21,199 nucleotides of DNA from a virus (IMGVR_UViG_3300042924_000241:1-21199); one strand, 5' to 3'. Shown: positions 1,183 to 16,063, numbered from the stretch's first letter. Translations and numbers: made by a program. Notes: a model not told the origin generated them from the letters alone.

Positions 1183-1462
1183 ATCAGTCAAAGAGTATAT
1201 GAACGAAGTAGCTGGCATAGGTTGCGTGATGTGTCACCACCTTGACCTCGGCTACTCACCTGCCGTTCTCCACCATCCCCGCGACGCAGTGGGTGGGGCG
1301 CAGCGGGCGTCAGACTGGTTGGTGATTCCCCTCTGTCCTGAGCACCATGTTGGAAAGTCGGGATACCATGGGTTAGGAAGCAGGGGGTTTTATACACGGT
1401 ATAAGCTCTCAGAGTGGGATCTAATGGCGATGACTATTCAGAAGTTGCATACTGCTTCTTAA
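1175..1462 (+). CDS. small HNH-type nuclease, Ref (RecA-dependent nuclease)-like
   Basis: This 95-residue protein has the Cys/His pattern of the Ref/HNH phage nuclease group: C17-x2-C20 (GCVMC), H33/H34 (VLHHP), RASDWLVIPLCPEHH with C54 and H57/H58, then GKSGYHG with H65. In phage P1, Ref is an HNH-type nuclease that cuts DNA at RecA-mediated displacement loops and stimulates recombination; small relatives are common in phages. It presumably acts on DNA in the cytoplasm during replication or repair. ATG 1175 follows AAAGGA by about 9 bases and overlaps the previous gene by 8 bases. It is the last gene of the plus-strand cluster. Its 3' end overlaps the 3' end of the opposing virion-protein gene by 29 bases. 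The HNH call is firm; kinship to Ref rather than another small HNH family is likely but unproved. Confidence 0.75.
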   Translation: MTKSVKEYMNEVAGIGCVMCHHLDLGYSPAVLHHPRDAVGGAQRASDWLVIPLCPEHHVGKSGYHGLGSRGFYTRYKLSEWDLMAMTIQKLHTAS

Positions 1463-4400
1463 CCATTATCCTTGCGTCTTCCATCTGCTTGGCTATCTCG
1501 CCAATAATTATCTTCATCCGGTCAATCTCTTCCTTCTTCTGAGCGCCAGACATATTCTCGTCGTTACGGATAGCTTGAATGGCTTGGCGCATCTTTGACA
1601 TATCTTTAGAAGCATTGTCATAGAACTTAGCCATAGCAATCTTGTCGCCCTTCTCCTTCAAGATTTCTTGAACTTTGTCTGCTTGACCTAGCTGGGCAAA
1701 ATGCCGCATGTCAGCGTAAGCCTGGCTGATCTCCTTATTGTTCTCATAGAAGGCAGTGACATACTTAGACTGCGTAGCCGGTAGAGACTTGATAAATCCC
1801 ATGGACAAAGTTTCAGTCCAGTTGTTGTCTGGGTACGCAGACTTTGAGAACGGCATAACGGCGTAGTGCGACAACCAAGAGACAGTGCCACCCAGCCACC
1901 CAAAGTACGACTTGATTGTGTAGTCAGTTTGTACTGGCGAGACTTCCATGGACTCAGGTAGGAATACGTTAGATACCTTTGATAGCCCAATAGCCAAAGG
2001 ACTTGTCCTATCGGCTATGCGCTCAGCCTTGGAAAGTCTTTCCATGCCAGCAGTCTCAATAGGCGCGCCGGTAAAGCTGTCTTTATTAGAGTAAAGATCA
2101 ATCAATGGTTTGAACATCTGCGGCGTTGGATTGATGGCAAATGTATCCGTCATCATGCGGGATAAGCTTTGTCCAAAAATCTTACCCTCTACACCTTCAT
2201 CCATTATCTGCTCTGCAACGCGCTCGGCAACCGTGCCTAAAGCACCAATCTCAAATGGCTTAGGTACACGGAACGCTGCATCCATGCCTGGCAGTTTGAA
2301 CCACCAGAAGTTATCCCTATCCCACTGTTCACGTTTCTTAAACTCTTCATCATCTTTGAATGCCATGTACAGCATCAAAGAAGCTAGGGCTACAGCAGTC
2401 ATAACAATACCAAATTGTTCTGCGCGTTTCTTGTCTGACTTGGTAGATTGGTCAGGCTTACCAGTAACGCTGTTGTATATAACCCTGCTAGTAGGAATGA
2501 TGCCGTCTCTGCCAAGTTTGTACAGACCTTGCACACGAGCGTTCAAGAACGGCACCACTTGAGTTACCAAACGGAACGCAGGCCACGCACCCTGCATAGA
2601 GAAGTCCAGCATGTCTCTAGCTTGGAACGATGCTTCTAAGTGAGATAAACCCTGTTCTTTTAACTGGTTGTACAACGCCATGCGGTTAGCCGCTTCTGAC
2701 TTGTTTCCGTATTCTTGATACTTGTTCCAAGCTTTTAATAGGCCAGCTTTTATTTTCTTTTCATTGTCTAAAATAGTATCGCCACGCACACCGCTATCTA
2801 ATAATCGCTTGATCAACTTAGCCTGGTCGCCCTCGTACACAGAACCAAAATTAAAAATAGCTCCGCCAGCAAGAGCAGATATGTGCGCAGGATTATTCTT
2901 ATCAGTAGAAGCCCAGTTATTAATCACATTAGCAAATGGATTCTTCTTCAAGTCTGTGACAGCCATAGCAGAGATGGAATCACGGAACAGGTTACGAATC
3001 TTAAATGCCGGAGACAACGTAACACCAAACTGAAGCCAGTTTTTGAAGTTACGAGCAACATCCAAGAACTTAGACTTTGGCCCCATATAGCCAATAGACA
3101 TGATGGACTCAAGCAGCAGCGGTTCTTTAACGTCAAAGTATGCTGGGATACCATTAATCATTGTTTTGATTGTGCCCTTACCGCTGGTGGTGTACTCAGG
3201 CTTTAACTTGCCATCACCTACCAACTGACCTGACTTTGCGCTATACACTTTCCCATCACGCCAATCTAAACCTACCTTTAGGTTAGGAAATGCCGCTTCC
3301 AAATCTAACGCCGCACGGATGGTGGCATTAGCAGCTTCGTTCTTCATAGACGCAGACAAGATATGACTCCAGTTGCGCAGAGTGTTTTCCATCAGATCAC
3401 CAAAAGGTTTTTCTCCACCTTTTAGTGCCTTAGAGAAGTATTGGTTAACCAGTCCCGATTTAGATGCTGCAGCCTGAACGTCACCATTCTCATCCATCAT
3501 CTTGTAAAACGGAATGTAATTGATATCGCGGCGATATACTTTGTATGCTTCAGCGTCAATAATTCCTTGACGTAGAGCCACACTCAATACCGAACCGTTC
3601 AATTTCTTCATACCACGTTGGACTTCTTTGTAAACTTGCAAACGTGATTTGTCGCCTATCTTTCCAGACGAAAGCTGATCTCTTTCCGCAACAATATCTT
3701 TGTTTACAGATGGGGCTTTCCCGCTTTTAACTAACCCTGCATCACGGGTAAGAGCTGCCCATATCTGGTATCGGTCAACCTCATTACCAACAGGCTCCAA
3801 TACTTTTATCAAGCCATCTGTTTTTGGCATGATATCAAGAGCGCCATCAGTTAACTTTACGCGACCGTTAAACAACAGACCCTCTAGCGCACCGTCCACA
3901 GTCTTGGACATGCGAGCTTTCATGTACGCATCTTCGGATATATCTTTGATGGAACGGTACTGATCTGCTATACCCTGTGCAAGTTTTAACCAGAAGTCAT
4001 TTTGCATACCCTCAATCTTGTCGATGATCGTATTCTTCTCTGGGGCGAAGATTGGCTTAAGTGCATCGTAGTATTCGTCTGACACGCCGTCGAACTGGCT
4101 CTTAGGCAAGGTGCGCTTCTGCAAAGCTTTCTGTGCTATATCTTTGGCTTTGCCAGCAATGCTTTCATACGTAGTTGCAGTTCCAAGCATAGTCTGACTC
4201 TTAAATTTACCGTCACCTTTTATTAGGCTATCCAAAGCTTTAATAATTGGCGCATTAGAAGTAAAGCCAAACGCATCTTTTATGTATTGCACAAACTCAC
4301 TTAACCAATTACGCAAGCTATTGATCACACCTTGCTTTGCCTCAAAACGCTTAGACATAATGTCAGTAGCATTTACTGCCCAGAACTCTGAAGCATTTGC

Positions 4401-7178
4401 GTACTGATAATATTGAGATGGAACTTTGCCATCCGAAATCATTTGCAAAGCTGATCTAAATTGTGTTTCTGATTGAGCGCCACCACCAAAGTGATAGTTG
4501 TTAAGGGTATTGAAAAAACTTTTTACGTTTTCATTGGTACTTTTTAAAGCTTCTTTGTTTGCTTTTATAAAGTTCTTTATCCACAGCTTACGTATTTCAT
4601 CTTGGACATTTTCAGGCATCATGCGTTCCATGTGATGCAGTATTTCATGCACCGCAGTTTTTTCTGACGCCCGCCCTTTAAACAAAGTAAACATCCTACC
4701 AAAAGGATTGTATCCTCCTGATGCCTCATTTCCTTCTTTAGCCGTTTGAACTGCTATAGCTAAATCTTCTACCAACGCAGGGTTTTGTTTAATTAGCCAT
4801 TCAGCAAAATCAAGCGCCCTTTCATCTAATACACCTTCATCAACAGCTTCTAAGAGTTTGCGACGAATCCATGTTGCTCCACGACGGCGTGGCTTAATAT
4901 TTTCTTCAGTTTTAGTTCTGTCATATACGCGACCGATAGCTGACATTGCATATTCGGCAGTCATTTTATCGTTCGTGTTGTATGTTTTAATTAATTTTGC
5001 AGCCTCACGACGGAACGATGGTGTTTTTTCTACGCCACGTTGCGGCTCAATGCTCAAATATTTATCTGGATAATATTCGTCCTTATCCTTTACTTGTTCT
5101 TCGGGTGCTGCTGGCAAAGGTTCTTGGATTCCTACAAACCCTTCTTGGGGAGCAAGCTGCTCTAACTCTGCGCGACGTTCCTCCAGTGGAATTTCTTCCA
5201 CCGCTTTCTGCACAATTTCAGGGGACTTTAATTCTTGAATACGAGCATCAAGATTAGAAAGATCTTCACTCAATTTATCAATTTGATCTTGCGTTTCAAA
5301 AGGTAATATTTTTATACTAGGATCTTGTGCTTGCTCCGTTCGCAACATGTCTTTTACAAACTCTTCCGACTCTTGCGCATCAAACATAGGAGAAGTGTGT
5401 CTCATCTCCTCTGGAAGCCATTTGTCCAACATACCATCAGAAACTAAATCGGCAATTGAATACGATCTTCTGCCTTCTTTAGCCGCCAAATACTTAACTG
5501 TTTTTTCAGGACTGATATCAATAACTTCTTCAGGAGCAAGCTTGCCCCTAAGTAAAGTTTTCATATCGTCAGCCCTATCTGTTACAGGGCCACGCAACGA
5601 ACGGATCTGTTTGTCTAAACCGTTTGCTTCTTTAATTAAATCTTTAACTTCCGCTTGCGCTTCCGTTGTCGGTATCTTCTTAAGCTTCAAAGTAGCACGG
5701 CGGAAATCAGCTAGAGCTTGATTGATAAACTTAGTAGTCTCATCTTCTGGAATAGATCCAGATTCCATTTGGCTTCTAAGTTCAAGAAGTTCTGGACGAA
5801 CAGGCTCACGGGAACGGCGGATGCCATCCATGATCATGTCCATCTTGAGGCCTTGAAGCTCTTGAATCCGTGATTGAACTTCTGGTGACTTTGGCTGTTG
5901 CTTGAGGTATTCAACTTCTTGGGTTGCCTCACCGTAAGTCATAGCCGGACGCTCTACCTCTTCCGCCGTAGGATCTATAAAATCACCCCTGCGCTCTACA
6001 GGTTGCGGCTCGTATTTCTTTTGGAACTGTTCTTCTTCGTACTTTGCCAAATCCTCTCGTGTCATGGCGACTGAGCCGTCTGGCAAACCAACAGGAACAA
6101 ATGCACCCTTACCCTCTAACAATAACGGAATTTGTTTTTCTTCAACTGGCTTGGGTTGTTCTTCAGCCGCCTGTTTTTCAGGTGGAAGAGTTTCTACTTC
6201 GCCGCGACGAGACAGGCCAGCAGCAGTACCGAGGCCAAGACCGCCTACAGCAGCCATACCCATAGTCTCGCCTAGACCTTCTGTCAGGCTACGGCTAGGA
6301 TCGACATTCTGTACAGCAAGGTTCTGCGCTACCTTGCCGCCACCTTCTTCAATCATCTCGCTGATAGCTTCGCCAGCGCCGCCTTTGACGCCGGTCATAA
6401 TCCTGCCACCCTTGATCGGTGTCTTTGCCATCACACGTTCGATAGAGCGACCACCCGGCAGCATCTGTGCGCCTACCGATATCACTCCAGCTTCCAAGCC
6501 AGCAACACGAGCAAATCCAAGCACACGACCAGTAGCTTCCTCTGGCGTCATGCCTTGGTCTACCAGCTTCTTGTGCATCTCTTTGAACGTCTCTGCGCCA
6601 ATATCAGCGCCCTGCTGCGTAGCACCTGTGCCTACCGCACCAGCCGTTGCCGCCTTCGCTCCAGCGCCTGCCAGACGCAGACCACGAGCTACCGCCAGAC
6701 CTGGCAAAAGGTTTGGAGCTTGCTCTGCTATAAAGTTTGTAAGGAGAGCTGGATCTTTAATCGTCTCCATGAATGCTGTAACACCGGCAGATACCTGGCC
6801 TTCTTTACCGGCTTCAGCAATCTTTGCCGTGCGCTCTACTTCTCTGCGCTTTAACTCCTCTGACTTCATAGACTCGCCGTACTCGCGCATCTCGCGACCG
6901 ACTTTAGTCAGTCCAGTATCAGAGAAGTCACCTGTAGCTAAACCATAGATTTGACCAGGCAGTTGTGTGAGAGCGCCAGCACCAGATACTAGACCAGCAC
7001 CTATGTCTTTGGCGGCCTCACCCATAGTGCGTTCTTTAAGGGCAGCAGGAGCGGCAGGTGCTGCGGGCTGCGAAACCATAGCAGACTTCAAAGCATCAGC
7101 TAAAGCCCGAGCTGCCTGTTGGTCTCCCGCGTTGTGCGCGTTTAGGAAGGCGCGTTCAAGCTCCTGGACTGTAGCCAT
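1434..7178 (-). CDS. giant virion (probably ejected) polyvalent protein with zincin motif and LPD38-like C-terminus
   Basis: This 1914-residue protein is the last gene of the late operon. It opens with a short helical segment (ELERAFLNAHNAGD, with Ala/Arg-rich continuation) of a type often seen at the start of large phage virion proteins. Gly/Ala-rich hydrophobic stretches follow at about 153-183 and 306-321, then a charged, proline-containing coiled-coil region (about 330-800). Around 844 there is VHEILHHME: H844, E845 and H848 form an HExxH zincin motif, with E931 in SEFWA as a plausible third zinc ligand. From about 1220 to 1790 the sequence resembles the LPD38 domain of phage polyvalent proteins (for example LQFGVTLSPAFKIRNLFRDS). 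A membrane-like helix lies at 1589-1607. Such proteins are thought to be packaged and ejected with the DNA, as T7 gp14-gp16 are. The start abuts the previous stop (TAAATG) and has GGTGGA upstream. Whether the peptidase is active and what it targets are unknown. Confidence 0.8.
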   Translation of the reverse strand: MATVQELERAFLNAHNAGDQQAARALADALKSAMVSQPAAPAAPAALKERTMGEAAKDIGAGLVSGAGALTQLPGQIYGLATGDFSDTGLTKVGREMREYGESMKSEELKRREVERTAKIAEAGKEGQVSAGVTAFMETIKDPALLTNFIAEQAPNLLPGLAVARGLRLAGAGAKAATAGAVGTGATQQGADIGAETFKEMHKKLVDQGMTPEEATGRVLGFARVAGLEAGVISVGAQMLPGGRSIERVMAKTPIKGGRIMTGVKGGAGEAISEMIEEGGGKVAQNLAVQNVDPSRSLTEGLGETMGMAAVGGLGLGTAAGLSRRGEVETLPPEKQAAEEQPKPVEEKQIPLLLEGKGAFVPVGLPDGSVAMTREDLAKYEEEQFQKKYEPQPVERRGDFIDPTAEEVERPAMTYGEATQEVEYLKQQPKSPEVQSRIQELQGLKMDMIMDGIRRSREPVRPELLELRSQMESGSIPEDETTKFINQALADFRRATLKLKKIPTTEAQAEVKDLIKEANGLDKQIRSLRGPVTDRADDMKTLLRGKLAPEEVIDISPEKTVKYLAAKEGRRSYSIADLVSDGMLDKWLPEEMRHTSPMFDAQESEEFVKDMLRTEQAQDPSIKILPFETQDQIDKLSEDLSNLDARIQELKSPEIVQKAVEEIPLEERRAELEQLAPQEGFVGIQEPLPAAPEEQVKDKDEYYPDKYLSIEPQRGVEKTPSFRREAAKLIKTYNTNDKMTAEYAMSAIGRVYDRTKTEENIKPRRRGATWIRRKLLEAVDEGVLDERALDFAEWLIKQNPALVEDLAIAVQTAKEGNEASGGYNPFGRMFTLFKGRASEKTAVHEILHHMERMMPENVQDEIRKLWIKNFIKANKEALKSTNENVKSFFNTLNNYHFGGGAQSETQFRSALQMISDGKVPSQYYQYANASEFWAVNATDIMSKRFEAKQGVINSLRNWLSEFVQYIKDAFGFTSNAPIIKALDSLIKGDGKFKSQTMLGTATTYESIAGKAKDIAQKALQKRTLPKSQFDGVSDEYYDALKPIFAPEKNTIIDKIEGMQNDFWLKLAQGIADQYRSIKDISEDAYMKARMSKTVDGALEGLLFNGRVKLTDGALDIMPKTDGLIKVLEPVGNEVDRYQIWAALTRDAGLVKSGKAPSVNKDIVAERDQLSSGKIGDKSRLQVYKEVQRGMKKLNGSVLSVALRQGIIDAEAYKVYRRDINYIPFYKMMDENGDVQAAASKSGLVNQYFSKALKGGEKPFGDLMENTLRNWSHILSASMKNEAANATIRAALDLEAAFPNLKVGLDWRDGKVYSAKSGQLVGDGKLKPEYTTSGKGTIKTMINGIPAYFDVKEPLLLESIMSIGYMGPKSKFLDVARNFKNWLQFGVTLSPAFKIRNLFRDSISAMAVTDLKKNPFANVINNWASTDKNNPAHISALAGGAIFNFGSVYEGDQAKLIKRLLDSGVRGDTILDNEKKIKAGLLKAWNKYQEYGNKSEAANRMALYNQLKEQGLSHLEASFQARDMLDFSMQGAWPAFRLVTQVVPFLNARVQGLYKLGRDGIIPTSRVIYNSVTGKPDQSTKSDKKRAEQFGIVMTAVALASLMLYMAFKDDEEFKKREQWDRDNFWWFKLPGMDAAFRVPKPFEIGALGTVAERVAEQIMDEGVEGKIFGQSLSRMMTDTFAINPTPQMFKPLIDLYSNKDSFTGAPIETAGMERLSKAERIADRTSPLAIGLSKVSNVFLPESMEVSPVQTDYTIKSYFGWLGGTVSWLSHYAVMPFSKSAYPDNNWTETLSMGFIKSLPATQSKYVTAFYENNKEISQAYADMRHFAQLGQADKVQEILKEKGDKIAMAKFYDNASKDMSKMRQAIQAIRNDENMSGAQKKEEIDRMKIIIGEIAKQMEDARIMVKKQYATSE

Positions 7179-8594
7179 TTATTTTCCACCATATTGTTTC
7201 AATGCTGCCGCAGCTTCGGGGCTAAGTTTAAATGGATTAGCTGTTGTGCTTGTTCCTTGCTCACTCATCCTTGAAGGATCAGATTGAATTAATTCTGTAG
7301 CCAATCTTTTCTTTTCTTCCAATGTTTTCATGCCAAACGTAGGATCAGATTGAGACAATATTTTTAATGCCTCTTCATAAGACAGAGTGTTTTGTGGTTT
7401 GCCAACGTTACGGATTTGTCCAATATTACCCATAAATTTGTTAGCCGCTTCTGGGCCTTGTTTAGCAAGAATATCGTGGTATCTACCAAGTAGACGCTCT
7501 GTTTCACCAGGCTTGCCAGCAGTAGCTGCATGTATCTGCGCAACTTTGATCTGGTATTCTCCGCTTGTCTTGGCAACTTCCAAAGCCCTCTTTGCATTTT
7601 CATCAATACCGTACTGAGTAACAAATAAATCGGATGCTTTCTCAGAAGCTTTGTTGTACTGCTCTGTTTGACGATTTTCCAAATCATCCAACTTATCTTG
7701 TTTAGCCTGTACCCTACCAATAGCTTTGCCTGACATATCACGTTTACTGCGATCCTCTGCCATCATCAACTCGCGCTGTGTTTTCTTGATATCTTTCTCA
7801 GTATTGCGTATATCTTTAAGCGCAGAACCATAAATATTGGAAGCGTCAGCAATACCAGCTCCCAACATTTGACCTTCTTGTCCTTGTCTTGCTTGGAATA
7901 ATTTGGAAGCAAGTGCTAACGCAGCAGCTCCTTTCGCCTCCTCCCTTTGTTTTGCAAAATCTGCTTTACTAGCCCCGTCTTCTTCGCGCATACGTTTGTA
8001 CATATCTGGATCTACGCCTGCTTCACGCTCCGCCTCACGAATACCAGCCATTTCAGCTTTAATATTTGTAGGCGAAGGCATGTTGTATTCGCGGAACTTA
8101 AAGCCACCAGGCAATGTCAGACCAGCTTCGCTTGGCATAGTTGCCAGAGCAGCGTCAGCTTGTCTGCTTGCACGTACATAATCTTCTGGTCTGCCACCAT
8201 CTGCAAACGCAACTATCCCGCCGCCTGCATAATCAGGCAAATTGGTAGGTAACGCAGCAACACCATCGCTGTAAGGTAATGCACCCATAATCCCGCCATC
8301 TGCCGCCATCTGTGGTGGCATCTGACCTTGCGGCATCTGTGGGGGCTGACCCATCTGCGGAGGCATACCTTGACCTTCGGCAGTTGGAGCCTGACCTAAT
8401 ACATCTTGAGCTACTGTAGTTTGCGGAGGCGTCATAGCTGACTTAGCTATGCGGTCGATCATCATGCCAGCCATCACCGCTTCTTGTGGGCCTACTAATC
8501 CCATCTGTACCATGCGCTGTAAATCTGGCTTACTGTATTTAGTAGCTAGCTCACGTACCTGATCAATCCGTACATTGAAGTCATCGCGTTTCAT
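7179..8594 (-). CDS. hypothetical virion-associated protein with GGIVA-type motifs
   Basis: This 471-residue protein has no function I can name. A helical N-terminus (about 1-70) is followed by a Pro/Gln/Met-rich linker (about 75-97, QMGQPPQMPQGQMPPQM). Two glycine motifs then occur at residues 98-105 (ADGGIMGA) and 123-134 (AGGGIVAFADGG). The remainder (about 180-340) is Lys/Glu/Ala-rich and probably a long coiled coil, ending in a Pro/Ala-rich tail. It has no signal peptide or transmembrane helix. It lies between two other probable internal virion proteins and is joined to them without gaps: 2 bases after the upstream stop, and its own TAA directly before the 1914-residue gene. The start has AGGA about 8 bases upstream. 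Context and composition suggest a neck, internal core or ejected protein; that is inference. Confidence 0.7.
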   Translation of the reverse strand: MKRDDFNVRIDQVRELATKYSKPDLQRMVQMGLVGPQEAVMAGMMIDRIAKSAMTPPQTTVAQDVLGQAPTAEGQGMPPQMGQPPQMPQGQMPPQMAADGGIMGALPYSDGVAALPTNLPDYAGGGIVAFADGGRPEDYVRASRQADAALATMPSEAGLTLPGGFKFREYNMPSPTNIKAEMAGIREAEREAGVDPDMYKRMREEDGASKADFAKQREEAKGAAALALASKLFQARQGQEGQMLGAGIADASNIYGSALKDIRNTEKDIKKTQRELMMAEDRSKRDMSGKAIGRVQAKQDKLDDLENRQTEQYNKASEKASDLFVTQYGIDENAKRALEVAKTSGEYQIKVAQIHAATAGKPGETERLLGRYHDILAKQGPEAANKFMGNIGQIRNVGKPQNTLSYEEALKILSQSDPTFGMKTLEEKKRLATELIQSDPSRMSEQGTSTTANPFKLSPEAAAALKQYGGK

Positions 8595-8596
8595 AA

Positions 8597-9715
8597 TTAG
8601 TTCCTAGACAAATTGTGTACGCCCAGCCCCATTAAACCGCCTTCTGCACTACCAAACAATTTAGATGCGCCATAAATACTGGCACCGGCACCGGCAAGTT
8701 GAGCGGGTAATGATGGAGGCGCTTGGTAAATTTGTTGAGTAGTGTTTTGTGGAATGCCTTTAAGCATCTCAGCCAAGAACGCAATCTGTTGGTATGGATA
8801 TTGTTTCTGTGTCAGGAAATCTTGATAATCCTGTGACATTCTCTGCTGTTCCATAGCCTGACGTTGCGCGCCAGCCGCACCCATAGCATTGATAATGTCC
8901 TTCTGCATGCCAAACTGTTGTTGTCCCAGTGATCCTAACTGCTGTGCTGCTTGCAACTGAGTCTGTAGACCCTGCATGCCCATGCCTGCGCCGTACTGAC
9001 GAGACTGTTCTGCCAGACGTTGCGCTTCCAATGCTGCTTGTTGGTTTGCCTGTTGAGCTTGTAGCGCACGACCAGCTTCTGTGCCATACAGGTTCTGTGC
9101 TTGCTCAAACGCCGCCTGCATACCCTTCTGTTGGATATCACCCTTCTGCTGGGCTAGATTACGTGCAGCCTCTGCTTGCAAGATAGCCTGACGAGATCCA
9201 CCAAAAGCGCCAGACTTTACAGCACCAGCTTGCATCTGTTGACCAGCTATATCTGCTTGACGTTGTGCTTCGCGGTTTTGAATATCCACCACGTTCTGTA
9301 CATAAGGAGACATGTACAAGCCTGCTAGTCCTGGCTGGGTAAAGCTACCAGTACCTACTGCCTGTGTTTGGAATTGCTGCGGCATGTAATTAAAGTTGCC
9401 TGCTGTCTGCCCTGCTTGCGCGGCAAACTGTGTAGCCGGTGCCAACTGTTGTGCTGGGCCAAGATTAGCTACTGCCTGCTGACTAGATAATTGCAAAGGA
9501 TCAAACCCTGCTATGCGATTACCACCGTATGGCGTATATCCAGCCGTACCCTGAGCAATAGCCCTCTTAGCCATTTCATTGACCATAGGCTTAAACTCTT
9601 CTGGGTAGGAGAGCGTAGTCTGCTGTGTAGATGTAGCCTGCTGCCCACCACCTTCACCACCCATGTGGAAAGTAAACCACTCAGGATTGAAGAATAATTT
9701 TAATAATTTAAACAT
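8597..9715 (-). CDS. Gln/Ala-rich hypothetical virion protein
   Basis: This 372-residue protein is placed from ATG 9715, because AAGGAG stands exactly 7 bases upstream. The frame stays open to 9829, but that extension would lie wholly within the upstream gene. The product starts MFKLLKLFF, then has a Gly/Gln/Thr linker, a conserved-looking block (LYMSPYVQNVVDIQNREAQR, then SGAFGGSR) and a long Gln/Ala-rich helix (about 180-310), probably coiled coil. Near the C-terminus, residues 357-365 read AEGGLMGLG, a variant of the motif found in the two flanking virion proteins. I recall similar proteins with the MSPYV and SGAFGGSR signatures as frequent but uncharacterised in podovirus late regions. 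It overlaps the upstream gene by 8 bases. A DNA-ejection or internal core role is plausible; I am sure of the gene, not of its job. Confidence 0.75.
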   Translation of the reverse strand: MFKLLKLFFNPEWFTFHMGGEGGGQQATSTQQTTLSYPEEFKPMVNEMAKRAIAQGTAGYTPYGGNRIAGFDPLQLSSQQAVANLGPAQQLAPATQFAAQAGQTAGNFNYMPQQFQTQAVGTGSFTQPGLAGLYMSPYVQNVVDIQNREAQRQADIAGQQMQAGAVKSGAFGGSRQAILQAEAARNLAQQKGDIQQKGMQAAFEQAQNLYGTEAGRALQAQQANQQAALEAQRLAEQSRQYGAGMGMQGLQTQLQAAQQLGSLGQQQFGMQKDIINAMGAAGAQRQAMEQQRMSQDYQDFLTQKQYPYQQIAFLAEMLKGIPQNTTQQIYQAPPSLPAQLAGAGASIYGASKLFGSAEGGLMGLGVHNLSRN

Positions 9716-10154
9716 GTAAATGCTCCTTGCGGTAATCGTCAAATCGTTCCGCAACCATTTCTTTCCAAACTTCAGGCATGTATTTGGCTGCTTCAACAGG
9801 CCCAACACATACATGAACCATGTACGCAATAATGTTTCCAGCGGAATAACGTAGGTTATGTGCTATCTCAATACCATGTTCATCTTTGTTACGTTCAAAA
9901 GCATTTGCTGTTTTGTATGCAGACACAACAGTTATCCACATAGGTAAAACATAAGGCTGAACTGTCTTATAAAACGGATTGTTTGGTAAGTACACCAATG
10001 CAATCAAGAACGCTTCGTTTATTTCGTCTTCGGTTGTTTCTCTGTCTTTGTCAACCAAGTCATCCCAGATGTGAGCCAACCTGACAAACATACGGTAGAC
10101 GGCTAGTGCGTCCTCATTGCCACCAAACCATTCTAGTTTGCCGTTATCACTCAT
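9708..10154 (-). CDS. small all-helical hypothetical phage protein with DDxxD motif
   Basis: This 148-residue protein appears almost wholly alpha-helical. Its notable segment is residues 26-39, around LAHIWDDLVDKDRE, with D31-D32-x-x-D35-x-D37. The segment after residue 50 (LVYLPNNPFY, then a hydrophobic helix VLPMWITVVSAY) is followed by a conserved-looking helix with AHNLRYSAGNIIAYMVH. The DDxxD spacing recalls the metal-binding motif of class I isoprenoid synthases, but the protein is about half their size, so this may be coincidence. I recall similar proteins in late regions of aquatic podoviruses, always without a function. Its ATG overlaps the upstream stop (ATGA), with no clear Shine-Dalgarno, and its 3' end overlaps the next gene by 8 bases. 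A structural or assembly role is suggested by context only. Confidence 0.7.
   Translation of the reverse strand: MSDNGKLEWFGGNEDALAVYRMFVRLAHIWDDLVDKDRETTEDEINEAFLIALVYLPNNPFYKTVQPYVLPMWITVVSAYKTANAFERNKDEHGIEIAHNLRYSAGNIIAYMVHVCVGPVEAAKYMPEVWKEMVAERFDDYRKEHLHV
9723..9728 (-). promoter_or_regulatory. Shine-Dalgarno that fixes the start of the 372-residue virion protein
   Basis: On the minus strand this is AAGGAG, 7 bases before ATG 9715 and inside the 3' end of the 148-residue gene. It is one of the strongest ribosome binding sites in the window and argues for a start at 9715 rather than any codon further upstream in the same frame. Confidence 0.7.
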
Positions 10155-13100
10155 GCTGGTAACATTTTATCTGCACGACTGTTAACAGCAACCTTGCCCT
10201 TACCAACTGTTCTAGTTCTTGCGCGCTGTACACGTTCCATCATTGCGTACAGTTTCCTTGCGCCTGCTTCGGTGGAACCGTTTCCAAGCTCAGAGACTAT
10301 ACGTGCCGGAACCACAAACTCACCATCAGCAAGACGGGCAGGCTGGCGGTCGCCAATAGAAGCAGGAATAGAATCACTAACTCCATCTCCAGGGCCGCGT
10401 AGTAATCTTCCACCATCGGAGTAACCTCCCAAGTTGTACCCAGCAATACCGCCAGATGCCATGCCAGTAGGGGCTTGTGCAGTTTGAGCAGCTTGGGCGG
10501 CTTGTGCAGCTTTAATTGCTTCCTCTACCGTTGGGTATTTATCAAACCCAAAGATGTTTGGCGCTGATGCTGTTAGGCCAGATGGAGTAGCAGGCAGACC
10601 ATATTGCGATTTAATTGAAGTTAACCCTGGTTCACCAAGCTGCGAGTAAAGATTTGTTAATCCTAACCGTTGACTGATATCTGCATACGGCAGAGCGCCT
10701 TCAATCGTAGACTTAGGCTGCACAGCAAACGGATTGTACTGAGCCACATTAGGGCCAGTAGGTATGTACGGTGACGGCTGTGGAGCTGCTGCTGCCTGCG
10801 GAACTATCTGCTGCGCACGATAAGCGTTGATTTGCTCTTGGCTTATAGCTGGAGCAGAGGGTGTGCTAATTGCAGGAACAAATGGTTTAGTAAGTTTTTC
10901 TTGATATTGAGGAGAACCTTTTATCTGCTCTTGTAAAGCAGAAATGTTTACACCAGACTCTTTAAGTCTTATCAACTCTTCCATGGTTGGAGGTTTGCCA
11001 AATGTATCCTGATAGTAGGATGCAATTTGCTCCATCGACGCTGGGCCTTCTTCTTCAATCAATGCTTGTTTCTGCGCGCTAGTAAATGCAGCTTGGTTAA
11101 TCTTGTTTAGATTCTGCAAGTAAGCATCACTGGATGTCAGCGCACTACGAAGATTATTAAAGTTACTAACCTTGTTAGCAGGATCTTTGAAATACGCCAG
11201 CTCACCTTTGGTCATATCACGACCCCAGTAATACTGAGCCTGCTGGTTCAAATCATCATTGCTAAACTTCTGCGGCATGTTCAATTCAGCAAGCGTACCA
11301 ATGTTCTTGGATAAATCTGCCTCTGATAGTTTTTTACCTACGTACTTATTCATCTCTGTTGACGTAGGAGAACGACCAGCCAATTCTTCATAGACGCGGC
11401 GAATGTCGCCTTCTTCCATGATCTTTTTGGTGGCGTCTAAGCCTGGAGTTTTAGTAAGTTTGCTGTAAGTAGGTGTAACTTTTTCTGGAACGTATTGTCC
11501 ACTCTTAGGGTCGTAGACAACCTTGCCCTGTTTAGCCATTGAAAGTTCACCTTCCAATGTCTTAATTTGTTTTTGTTGGTCGGCACTAAGACTTTTAACA
11601 CTTCCGTATAACTGTTGCGATGGGTTGTTTTTAATTGCATCTATCTTTGCTTGAATGGTTGATGTATCACCAGAAGCTTGCGCTGTCTTTTGATCATAGC
11701 CACGAGCTTGCAAACCCTGTGTGCGTTTAGTCTGATCTCTAAATGCACCAATGCCAGTATCTTTGTATTCTTGAGCGCGGTTAAAATCACCAGCCTCTTT
11801 GTCATAGACTTCTTGCGCACGAGAAACCAAGCTACCGATGCCGGTCTTCTTAGCTGCCTCCAAAGCCGCTTTAGCTTTTTCCATCTCAGACTTCTGCTTA
11901 CCTAAACCTGTATCGTAGGCTTTTGTTAATGCAGATAGATCATCGCCTTTAACATCACCAGATGCCTCTGTGTACCCAGCTTTAAATACAGATGTGTCAA
12001 AGTTGCGCAAAGCCTGACGTTCTCTAATTTCAGCATCAAGTTCTTTTACACGATTGGTGTACTCATTCGTTGTTTCTTTGAACGCATTGTTTTGATCTGT
12101 TTGAATTCCTTTTAATTCACTTGAACGACCTGATTGCCATTCTTTAAGCTCACGTTGCATACGAGCTTTTGCTTCTTTGTCTTTTTCACCAGCAATATCT
12201 TTTTGCTTTTGCTTTAACTCGTTTGATGTATCTTTGTTATAGTTATTAATTCTGTCTGTGTATTCTTTCTTTAACTCAGCAGTGCGTTTGTCAGACTCAG
12301 CCTTTGCTCTAGCTTTGTCAGCAGCACGTTCTTTTGCAAAAGCAGCATATTCTTTAGCTGCATTCTCTTCGTTAATCTGCGCTTCTGTCTTAGGCGGTGG
12401 TGGTGCTTTGCCGCCTTTCTTTAGCGCAACAATCCCGCCACTAGCCAACTTCTGCTCACCGGTATACGGATCTACGTTTTGATATCCATCAGGCTGGAAT
12501 ACGTTCTGAGAGATAGGATTGTTCTTAGGTACAGAATATCCATAAGGCTTAAGGTTAGCCATAGGATAGTTAGTGTTAGCACCAACAGTATTCTGCTGGG
12601 ACATGTTCTCTACAGGCAAATTAGCTAGGCCGCCGTCTGCAAAATACATGCGCTCAGATGAACCGCCAGGCGCACGAGCAGACGGGTTGTAGACAGGTGT
12701 GCCACCTAATTGCATCTGCATTGCTGCTTGTGCTTCTTTCTTCTTGCGCTCTTCTTCCATGAGGAATGGAGCCATAGCCGCTAGGTAGTTACCTTTGTTC
12801 TCTTTGATGAAATCAGGGTTTATTAGCTTGGAGAAATCCATACCACCAAACATACCTTTAGATTTAGCTGCTTCTTCCAATACTTTGCTAGGGGCTGTTT
12901 GTGCTGCTTGTTGAGCTACAGCTTGTTGTTGCGCAATTTGTGCAGTGGTTAATTGGGGTGGAGCAATACCGCCAGAATATGCAAGTTGTCCTGCGCCAGC
13001 ACCTGCACTAACAGGTGCAACAGGCGCGGCTTGAGGAAGAGCAAATCCACCTAATTGTGGATTAGTTGCAGCACCCAATACATTAGGCGTAACAGCAGCA

Positions 13101-13606
13101 GTACCGGCAGCAGTAGCACCAGTCATACCAGTAAGAGCAGCAGGAGATCCAGCTAAACCAGTAGCCCCTAAAACTTGTCCTGCACCCACGGCTGCTGGAA
13201 CAGCTGAACCAGCAGTACCGGCAGCAGCAGCTCCGGCACCCATACCAGCACCTATTCCAGCACCACCATAGGCGCCTAAACCAGCTAACAAACCATTTTT
13301 CAAGCTGCCAGTCATAGCCGCAGTAGCACCACCTACCAGTAATCCCGCTGATGCAGCACTGCTTAATCCGCCAAATGCAATACCCGCGCCCGCTGGGCCT
13401 AACGCTAGACCAGCTACTATGGGAAGAATTTTTGACAGGAAGCCTGCCTCTGGCAATCCAGTTTCAGGGTTGATAGATAACGAACCACCGTGTGCCATAG
13501 CCAAGGACTGTAATCCGTTGACCTCACTTGGGGTCATGTGTACAAGTACCTTGTCCTCGCCTCTACCGGCGGTCTGAAGATGGTTAGCTAATGTGTGCAG
13601 GCTCAT
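10151..13606 (-). CDS. large modular virion protein (Gly/Ala core, coiled coil, DUF4214-like repeats, conserved C-terminal domain)
   Basis: This 1151-residue protein has clear modules. The N-terminus contains VHMTPSEVNGLQSLA and INPETGLPEAGFL, followed by a long Gly/Ala-rich hydrophobic stretch (about 55-190) that looks membrane- or pore-compatible. Glycine motifs occur at 322-328 (FADGGLA), 388-399 (ASGGIVALKKGG) and 1050-1061 (ASGGIAGYNLGG). A highly charged coiled coil spans about 410-530. Three segments resembling DUF4214 repeats (GRSPT, GRDMTKGELAYF, FGKPPTMEEL) lie at about 735-775, 788-835 and 855-895. The last 90 residues include GPGDGVSDSIPASIGDRQP and ADGEFVVPARIVSELGNGST, a strongly conserved C-terminal unit in many phage virion proteins. 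It follows the 104-residue gene by one base, with AAAGGTG upstream. It is probably a neck, internal core or ejection protein; a tape-measure-like role is the alternative. Confidence 0.75.
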   Translation of the reverse strand: MSLHTLANHLQTAGRGEDKVLVHMTPSEVNGLQSLAMAHGGSLSINPETGLPEAGFLSKILPIVAGLALGPAGAGIAFGGLSSAASAGLLVGGATAAMTGSLKNGLLAGLGAYGGAGIGAGMGAGAAAAGTAGSAVPAAVGAGQVLGATGLAGSPAALTGMTGATAAGTAAVTPNVLGAATNPQLGGFALPQAAPVAPVSAGAGAGQLAYSGGIAPPQLTTAQIAQQQAVAQQAAQTAPSKVLEEAAKSKGMFGGMDFSKLINPDFIKENKGNYLAAMAPFLMEEERKKKEAQAAMQMQLGGTPVYNPSARAPGGSSERMYFADGGLANLPVENMSQQNTVGANTNYPMANLKPYGYSVPKNNPISQNVFQPDGYQNVDPYTGEQKLASGGIVALKKGGKAPPPPKTEAQINEENAAKEYAAFAKERAADKARAKAESDKRTAELKKEYTDRINNYNKDTSNELKQKQKDIAGEKDKEAKARMQRELKEWQSGRSSELKGIQTDQNNAFKETTNEYTNRVKELDAEIRERQALRNFDTSVFKAGYTEASGDVKGDDLSALTKAYDTGLGKQKSEMEKAKAALEAAKKTGIGSLVSRAQEVYDKEAGDFNRAQEYKDTGIGAFRDQTKRTQGLQARGYDQKTAQASGDTSTIQAKIDAIKNNPSQQLYGSVKSLSADQQKQIKTLEGELSMAKQGKVVYDPKSGQYVPEKVTPTYSKLTKTPGLDATKKIMEEGDIRRVYEELAGRSPTSTEMNKYVGKKLSEADLSKNIGTLAELNMPQKFSNDDLNQQAQYYWGRDMTKGELAYFKDPANKVSNFNNLRSALTSSDAYLQNLNKINQAAFTSAQKQALIEEEGPASMEQIASYYQDTFGKPPTMEELIRLKESGVNISALQEQIKGSPQYQEKLTKPFVPAISTPSAPAISQEQINAYRAQQIVPQAAAAPQPSPYIPTGPNVAQYNPFAVQPKSTIEGALPYADISQRLGLTNLYSQLGEPGLTSIKSQYGLPATPSGLTASAPNIFGFDKYPTVEEAIKAAQAAQAAQTAQAPTGMASGGIAGYNLGGYSDGGRLLRGPGDGVSDSIPASIGDRQPARLADGEFVVPARIVSELGNGSTEAGARKLYAMMERVQRARTRTVGKGKVAVNSRADKMLPA

Positions 13607-13924: not shown

Positions 13925-16063
13925 CTATCTCCGACCGTCGCTGCGCACATCAATTCTTGGCGCACCTAATTGCCATTGACATCCCAACTGATCGGAACTA
14001 ATCCTGAACGCCATTTGGCGACCGCGCAGTCTGGTATACACAATCTGAGTAAACTCCTGCACGTTGTAGTTCTTGACTGAGTTGTATGACTGAGCTGACT
14101 GTACCAGCGGCGTGTCTGCTGTGCCATACGGCGCACCAGGGTTCTGGCGTGGACGTAGGCTAAATGTTACTTCTGGCTTGTCAGGTGAAGACGTAGTTGA
14201 CCCGTCGAACGTAATATCAGGGATCATCCTCCACACAAAACCGAAGTTGTGACCGTCGCCAATATCAAAGTCGGAAGACTGGATAAATGAGTTGATAGGC
14301 AGAATGGTTCCGTTTACCTCAACATCATTAGTGCCGCTCTCATGGTACACAACCGTGTTCTGATATGTAGCGCCCATAGGGTACTCGCGCAGCGGGCTGT
14401 CAGTCCAAGCGGTTCTTCCTAGACTGCCGTAGTACCAGACCTGATCTAGATAGTTGTAGATCACATAGCGGTCAATAACGGATGAATTAGCCGAGCAATA
14501 GAACCACCAGACCTCACTAAATCCTTCGTTCGTGCCAGCAAAAAATTGAGAGCTTTGCTGCAAATTAATGTCACCAAAAACATATTGTCGAAGTGAACAT
14601 GGAAGAGTTTCCACTCGACCTGTGTAGGCGTAGAACTTATCCACACCCATCCAGTAGGTAATGTTGTTAGCTGTTGCTACCGCGTTCGGGCCGACGATAG
14701 ATATATTGTCAGACAGGATGTTAAATCCCCACACAAACGGTGGGCCAAGATACTGCATAGAAAACAGCGCAGCATCCGTAAATACTAGAATCTCTTGGCG
14801 AGTCTGCTGTGCGGTAATAATCTGCGATCCGCTAGACAGACGGTAGCTACCAGCCTGATTGGTAATAGCTGGCGTCCAAGTCTGATAATCTTCCTGCGCA
14901 GACCAACGGATTAACAGTGGGTCTTGGATTGTTGAGCCGTAATCATTAACGCCAAACGATAGTACAAAACGGGAAGCATCTGATACCAGCACAAAGTTAC
15001 AAACAGTTGGGCACTCTGCATCTGTGTCGTATATGCCAGAACTATTGGGTGAAAGTAATTGCGCTCTGTTAACAAACTGTAAGTTGCCAGATCCACTGTA
15101 GTCTGGCACCCATAAATATAATGCCCCGCCGCGAGGATTGATAATCAAAAACTCACCGTAGTTAGCTTCTGACCACAAGCGCGGTTGTTCTGCAATACCG
15201 TAAGCAGCAGACTGACCCCAGCCTGTAAACGTAGCGGCGTTGTACACAGCCGTATTCGCAGGGAATGCCGTAGCTATAGTTCCGCTGGCACCGCGAGTTG
15301 CTCCTGTAAATGCAGTGGAAGTATTTCCAGTGTACGTAGTTAGCTCGCTGTTACCAATCATCAGAGTGCCAGTAGCATTGGCAAACCCTGTAGTAGAGTT
15401 AACTGCAATCGTTGTGTTGCTTGTATTTAGCGCAAGGCTTAATGTGGTCTGGGCTGTACCGTAGACGAAACCGCCCCACAGACCTGCGCCCCAGCCAGTC
15501 AAATAACCAAACGTAGCCAAGCCAGTATTAATCTGGTACGCCGCAGTTACAGTGCCGCCGCCAGTTGAAGATGCGTTAGCAGTAGTAGCCGCTGTAATTT
15601 GATACGAGTTAGTGTCAGCATTAAATATTACGTATTCATTGTTAAGATCTAACCCAGCTACAGCAGAAGCACCAGAGAACGTAACGTAATCGCCGTTAAT
15701 AGCTCCGTGACCAGCATCAGTAACTGTCACTACGGCAGAGCCGCTTATGGTGGTAAAAGGATTAGTAAGTACAGCCGTTTCACGGATAGGCGTAATGTCA
15801 TTGTAGACACCACCACTCTCAACGTAATACTTTAAGTTTGTTCCTACGCCCAGCAGGTTGTACCCGCGCAATGTTACCCAGTTCCACAAAGAACGAGCAA
15901 CACCTTCATACGTATTACTGGAGATAGGAGTCCATCCGCCAATCTTCTGGGGATATCCTGAACGAAATCTGATTTTATCGCACTCAAACCAACCACCTTC
16001 GTTAGCAAGCGTGGTTCCTTCTCTGTTAACGCCTGGACGCAGTTGCAGTTTTTGTAATGGCAT
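13925..16063 (-). CDS. beta-rich tail hub/DNA-stabilisation protein (P22 gp10-like, tentative)
   Basis: This 712-residue protein is rich in beta strands, aromatic residues and Asn/Thr. The N-terminus (LQLRPGVNREGT, GGWFECDKIRFRSG, PQKIGGW) has the look of phage hub or packaged-DNA stabilisation proteins that open with a description-like beta-propeller strand. Two inserted beta modules are visible. Residues about 98-176 carry GSAVVTVTDAGHGAINGDYV and end SSTGGGTVTA; residues about 200-273 carry TGATRGASGTIATAF, a module common in phage tail proteins. The C-terminal part (QTRQEILVFTDAALFSMQY, ADTPLVQSAQS, RLRGRQMAFRI) is again propeller-like. It starts 2 bases after the endolysin stop, with AGGTGG upstream. 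In P22 such a protein closes the portal channel. The assignment rests on composition and position, so it is a family-level guess; tail nozzle is the alternative. Confidence 0.65.
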   Translation of the reverse strand: MPLQKLQLRPGVNREGTTLANEGGWFECDKIRFRSGYPQKIGGWTPISSNTYEGVARSLWNWVTLRGYNLLGVGTNLKYYVESGGVYNDITPIRETAVLTNPFTTISGSAVVTVTDAGHGAINGDYVTFSGASAVAGLDLNNEYVIFNADTNSYQITAATTANASSTGGGTVTAAYQINTGLATFGYLTGWGAGLWGGFVYGTAQTTLSLALNTSNTTIAVNSTTGFANATGTLMIGNSELTTYTGNTSTAFTGATRGASGTIATAFPANTAVYNAATFTGWGQSAAYGIAEQPRLWSEANYGEFLIINPRGGALYLWVPDYSGSGNLQFVNRAQLLSPNSSGIYDTDAECPTVCNFVLVSDASRFVLSFGVNDYGSTIQDPLLIRWSAQEDYQTWTPAITNQAGSYRLSSGSQIITAQQTRQEILVFTDAALFSMQYLGPPFVWGFNILSDNISIVGPNAVATANNITYWMGVDKFYAYTGRVETLPCSLRQYVFGDINLQQSSQFFAGTNEGFSEVWWFYCSANSSVIDRYVIYNYLDQVWYYGSLGRTAWTDSPLREYPMGATYQNTVVYHESGTNDVEVNGTILPINSFIQSSDFDIGDGHNFGFVWRMIPDITFDGSTTSSPDKPEVTFSLRPRQNPGAPYGTADTPLVQSAQSYNSVKNYNVQEFTQIVYTRLRGRQMAFRISSDQLGCQWQLGAPRIDVRSDGRR

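Follow-up and report, generated by a model that had tools for sequence, protein, structure and literature searches.

Three neighbouring proteins of an uncultured aquatic phage carry copies of one short peptide, with the common core A-x-G-G-[ILVM]-x-x-[FLYMI]. The phage is represented here by a 21.2-kb fragment, IMGVR_UViG_3300042924_000241 (21,199 nucleotides; 'the window' denotes this whole stretch). The proteins, which we term A (1151 residues), C (372 residues) and D (471 residues), are encoded on its minus strand within a predicted DNA-ejection module. The shared peptide on these three ejection-module proteins is real and specific. It has no earlier description in the open-licence literature searched, where the string GGIVAF was not found. 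We give an even chance to the peptide being a short linear docking element common to three ejection proteins, with one putative shared partner.

The copies in the window are listed below; pLDDT is the predicted local distance difference test score of the structural models.

12590-12646, minus strand: A site 1, residues 321-339, YFADGGLANLPVENMSQQN, including ADGGLAN at 323; pLDDT <50
12410-12445, minus strand: A site 2, residues 388-399, ASGGIVALKKGG; pLDDT <50
10424-10459, minus strand: A site 3, residues 1050-1061, ASGGIAGYNLGG, directly N-terminal of the C-terminal domain; pLDDT <50
8600-8647, minus strand: C site, final 16 residues, AEGGLMGLGVHNLSRN
8280-8303, minus strand: D site 1, residues 98-105, ADGGIMGA, found in some of the relatives only; pLDDT <50
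8193-8228, minus strand: D site 2, residues 123-134, AGGGIVAFADGG, the best-conserved 13-residue stretch of D; pLDDT <50 over 121-129

Every copy named in a preliminary description of this DNA was found at its given place in A, C and D; that in C (AEGGLMGLG) starts at residue 357 of 372, or 395 of the 410-residue open reading frame (ORF). The description had framed the motif as the heptamer A-x-G-G-[IL]-x-[AG]. The copy at residue 323 of A fits A-x-G-G-[IL] but misses the final [AG], and the heptamer proves too short as a unit: the recurring element spans ~13-16 residues. Beyond the core, copies diverge into a D type (GGIVAFADGG) and a C type (GGL..L.[LV]..[ML]). A site 1 closely resembles the end of C in relatives (FAGGGLADLAVEHLSKG), and FADGGLADLPVARMSQQN of A almost matches this C sequence.

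Composition shuffles predict 0.05, 0.02 and 0.01 occurrences of A-x-G-G-[IL]-x-[AG] in A, C and D, against two, one and two observed (P = 0.0016 for A and 0.024 for C; 0/5000 shuffles for D). The other window proteins contain none, with 0.26 expected. The 148-residue protein B, encoded among the three and described earlier as lacking a copy, has none in the window, nor have 11 distinct members of its family. We extended the counts to related loci and ten larger genomes (~60-68 kb, three of the ten read to base 59,000). A, C and D of the ten relatives hold 40 core matches, compared with 1.3 expected from shuffles, and all remaining proteins hold 6, compared with 4.6; the ten genomes are mutually related, and neither count represents independent events. 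Background occurrence in Gly/Ala-rich proteins, the objection anticipated at the outset, does not account for the motif. Enrichment is confined to A, C and D, marking the element as shared, selected and specific to three co-located proteins.

Because the core expression was picked after the sequences had been viewed, a profile transfer test was also run. A 13-residue profile built from the A sites only, searched over 820 non-A proteins, returned ten D and six C proteins at ranks 1-16. The profile made from C ends only placed seven A proteins at the top and D at ranks 8 and 10-13, while the D-site profile recovered A at ranks 1, 3, 7 and 9. The host proteins are otherwise unrelated, as had been proposed: iterative hidden Markov model (HMM) families of A, C and D barely overlap, and the A/D overlap amounts to two proteins, of which one or both are A proteins recruited through the motif. 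The element recurs in non-homologous proteins above the composition background.

Position is conserved along with sequence. The D motif starts at a median residue of 112. Across 82 aligned D sequences, whose columns average 13% identity, G125 and G126 never vary, and A123, V128, A129, F130, G133 and G134 reach at least 90%. Around half of these 82 had been found with the motif pattern, so we repeated the measurement on 42 D sequences not chosen by motif; the motif is their top-conserved 13-residue window and is carried by 41 of the 42. A has mid-protein copies and one just before its C-terminal domain; in the latter copy, G1052 and G1053 are unchanged across 44 sequences. The C copy lies within the final 14-20 residues.

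Glycine codons of the copies agree across genes at 41% within genomes and 39% between them. This comparison therefore gives no hint that DNA was copied recently, and supports neither a recent duplication nor gene conversion at the DNA level. The near-identity of two 15-mers at base level, pointed out previously, probably reflects chance together with shared residues. These data bear on the view that Gly/Ala-rich linkers yield the motif as a by-product, by composition or recent duplication. A is Gly/Ala-rich and C Gln/Ala-rich, but the 30-fold excess over composition shuffles, the near-invariance at fixed positions, the background level in other proteins of the same genomes and the lack of a synonymous-codon sign of copying render this explanation highly improbable.

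The longer pattern AxGG[ILMF]VAFx[DEG]GG was scanned as DNA over IMG/VR, yielding at least 80 loci. All 80 of those listed are in frame, with no off-frame match. Among the matches listed (80), 70 fall in D, four in C (C-D fusions) and one in A, with five unassigned; assignment to D rests partly on the motif itself, and 50 of the 80 listed loci still match D once the motif is masked. The pattern loci were chosen without regard to neighbouring genes. In those listed, the core is enriched upstream, at rank -3 (21/49, 1.9 expected), rank -2 (12/55, 1.2 expected) and rank -1 (10/71, 2.7 expected); at downstream rank +1 it occurs in 1/52 (2.4 expected). Natural C-D fusions, or C sequences running on into a region with a D-type motif, exist in a single reading frame at L042:5937-8318, L150:1418-3793, L161:1-2433, L172:5176-6951 and L195:4416-6812.

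We modelled A and D with AlphaFold2 (D, pLDDT 76.9 and predicted template modelling score, pTM, 0.40; A, pLDDT 60.8 and pTM 0.35). All five modelled copies have pLDDT <50 and no strands, and sit beside confident helical domains. The element is placed in predicted linkers in A and D and at the C-terminus in C, that is, in disordered regions or termini. The preliminary description had raised a β-hairpin clasp; low pLDDT without strands at 5/5 modelled sites argues against a self-standing hairpin and is compatible with one formed on binding. A near-invariant peptide without predicted structure is the usual sign of a linear docking motif. A shared docking or co-packaging tag, also raised then, best accounts for conservation of the peptide in linkers predicted to be disordered and at a C-terminus. 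Searches of solved structures with profiles of D, C and A gave nothing relevant, and Foldseek comparison of the A and D models with viral structures returned low TM-scores, uninformative for long coiled coils.

The surrounding genes are given below in order of transcription.

13925-16063, minus strand: gp10-like stabilization/virion protein, 712 residues, phrog_3287 match, start of the module, without core motif
Between the gp10-like gene and A, minus strand: 104-residue protein
10151-13606, minus strand: gene A, 1151 residues, with a hydrophobic Gly-rich N-terminus, long coiled coil and tape-measure-like C-terminal domain; three motif copies
10214-10423, minus strand: C-terminal domain of A, residues 1062-1131 (SDGGRLLRGPGDGVSDSIPA...DGEFVVPA...), weakly tape-measure-like
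9708-10154, minus strand: gene B, 148 residues, phrog_21390 (unknown function)
8597-9715, minus strand: gene C, 372 residues (410-residue ORF from 9829), DNA ejection protein family phrog_4287
7179-8594, minus strand: gene D, 471 residues, with a helical N-terminal domain (10-54) and long coiled coil (178-396)
1434-7178, minus strand: gene E, 1914 residues, LPD38 domain, HEILHH at residue 844; window copy without core motif

The earlier label of 'virion proteins' can be sharpened. Because a phrog_3287 gene lies upstream, C belongs to phrog_4287 and the gene order agrees, we infer a podovirus-type DNA-ejection module; its genes are adjacent, stand beside a stabilization/neck gene and include an ejection-family match. 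To judge from these families and their order, A, C and D are probably proteins ejected into the host ahead of the phage DNA. D has no family assignment and full-length A no PHROG match. Named phage records keep the same gene order. In one of them, DSL-LC04, the counterpart of A bears the annotation 'tail tape measure protein' and that of E 'DNA transfer protein', and a further matching gene is labelled 'stabilization protein'.

Several observations concern individual members of the module. The D protein of L144 (L144:2-1762) has a lytic-transglycosylase-like stretch at ~186-305, resembling tape measure/transglycosylase proteins of many phages; no such stretch was seen in the window's D. A residues ~724-905 form helical repeats that look DUF4214-type by eye; this region gave no Pfam match above cut-off. 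Gene E of L054, L058, L061 and L081 carries a YRAxGGVMAF copy, and C in these loci ends in the variant PAGLSELLLYxMEx, not the motif. Host assignment through a scan of genome contigs gave one weak match only, to a pond metagenome-assembled genome.

The composition of the module brings in proteolytic processing, in which the proteins would be cut at or near G-G-[IL], at domain boundaries, either as the virion matures or once they have been ejected; the HExxH domain of E is a possible protease. In A and D the copies do fall at inter-domain positions, in C the copy is close to the C-terminus, and E has HEILHH in the window and HExxH in 21/30 family members. The remaining 9/30 E proteins are without HExxH, so cleavage by this domain is not general, and at least three of them (L012, L054 and L063) retain the motif in A and D. 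By eye, no prohead protease was recognised between the portal and capsid genes of G014, and conservation reaches well beyond GG on the C-terminal side. We regard processing as unlikely. Ejection proteins must also cross membranes, and the copies mix glycine with I/V/L/F, as might be expected if Gly-rich hydrophobic patches entered the host envelope during ejection. The hydrophobic runs, however, are a few residues only, often followed by acidic D/E and GG, and A and E have their most strongly hydrophobic segments elsewhere; a membrane-active role is accordingly very unlikely.

If the peptide serves docking, each copy would fold onto one common putative receptor present in many copies, for which the scaffold, the portal barrel or other ejection proteins are candidates. 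A, C and D would enter jointly beside the portal as the procapsid assembles, and/or stay aligned with one another while leaving to build a trans-envelope conduit. Such a common tag would account for the arrival of three unrelated proteins at a single location. In P22 the scaffold is needed for incorporation of ejection proteins, gp20 needs gp7, and the ejection proteins are clustered at the portal barrel (PMC4992974, PMC12005531). The window itself holds no portal gene, and a P22-type portal (PF16510, P22_portal) was found in 0/11 records, including ten relatives. The portal of relative G003 matches phrog_1216 and ends in a long Gln/Ala/Lys-rich stretch, helical barrel-like by eye, making this end a candidate receptor.

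Several points weigh against the docking interpretation. The C-terminal copy is kept in only 19/31 near C relatives and 21/71 non-redundant C proteins overall; distant variants such as AGLAELALMKMQ retain a G-L-x-x-L-x-L-x-x-M pattern. The D-site profile transfers weakly to C. Caulobacter phage RW, whose gene order and A C-terminal domain are related, lacks the core in A, C and D. Last, a hinge, a membrane peptide or a cleavage site also fit a conserved linker peptide. Since the core is absent in RW and present in A and D of DSL-LC04, the motif is a lineage trait and not universal to such modules. The core was likewise not seen on reading the ejection genes of Chlorobiaceae phage CV-1-33 and Kosakonia phage Kc166B, and a tblastn search of phage records with a 22-residue motif peptide gave no match.

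A separate receptor may also be dispensable. Under homotypic assembly, the A, C and D peptides would pack together only once released, through added strands or short helices, and form the ejectosome tube. The three proteins are neighbours, C-D fusions exist, and the C-end and A-mid copies appear by eye as short amphipathic helices (GGLADLAVEHLSKG); in T7, the gp16 N-terminus acts as a molecular tape on gp15 (PMC8954989). The divergence of D-type and C-type copies after the core and the prediction of neither strand nor helix at the D site run counter to such packing, which we consider possible but doubtful.

Comparison with known systems places the docking proposal in context. The P22 set (gp7, gp20 and gp16) is similar in that C belongs to a 'DNA ejection protein' PHROG, a gp10-like gene is upstream and the gene order is alike; incorporation of ejection proteins in P22 is cooperative. 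It differs in that the present module has an extra long protein, A, and an E ~3x the size of P22 gp16 (609 residues). A shared motif in P22 ejection proteins is not reported in the P22 literature examined. The T7 gp14/gp15/gp16 ejectosome likewise consists of three to four ejection proteins, one of them very large, but A, C and D have no sequence match to relevant solved structures.

The C-terminal domain of A is weakly similar to the C-terminal GPG.GTSDS...GEF[VI] segment of siphophage tape measures (phrog_3547, E = 0.0075; Caulobacter phage GB2A tape measure, E = 1e-5). A differs from these in sitting in an ejection module with gp10-like and DNA-ejection families. The similarity to tape measure proteins is confined to this domain and does not run along the rest of A, and full-length A matches no PHROG. 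The domain (window 10154-10486) is also weakly related to proteins of the cultured Caulobacter phages GB2A and RW and of Synechococcus phage MinM2. In a siphophage tape measure protein at L188:5609-9334, ASGGLVAFAGGG stands just before GPGSGTSDS...GEFIV, like A site 3.

A second shared tag was noticed in the relatives. Small neighbouring proteins end like GGKVSSASSRADGIAQRGKTKGRMC (L103:3943-5443, equivalent to G003:62443-63943), in 7/10 genomes by regular expression; G002 has a similar start to this peptide. Strings of the second tag were not found in the literature searched.

Encapsulin cargo-loading peptides offer a further parallel, by analogy only. These peptides are short and often C-terminal, are carried by several distinct cargo proteins whose genes lie close to that of the shell, and are both required and sufficient to load cargo into an HK97-fold shell (PMC7355545). 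The phage copies differ in being also internal and repeated, and the receptor here is putative.

The choice of ejection proteins and their placement beside the portal is a largely unsolved question, and rapid divergence often puts these proteins beyond the reach of homology (PMC8954989). The near-invariant shared peptide provides a mutable handle on ejection-protein placement, and the pattern AxGG[ILMF]VAFx[DEG]GG alone is a practical marker (at least 80 loci, none off-frame among the matches listed). Tentatively, and with rather less conviction than for docking itself, we suggest that one peptide code in many uncultured aquatic phages may recruit non-homologous ejection proteins to a single procapsid receptor. 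It would be the phage equivalent of encapsulin cargo loading, and a tag for finding ejection proteins that are otherwise unrecognisable.

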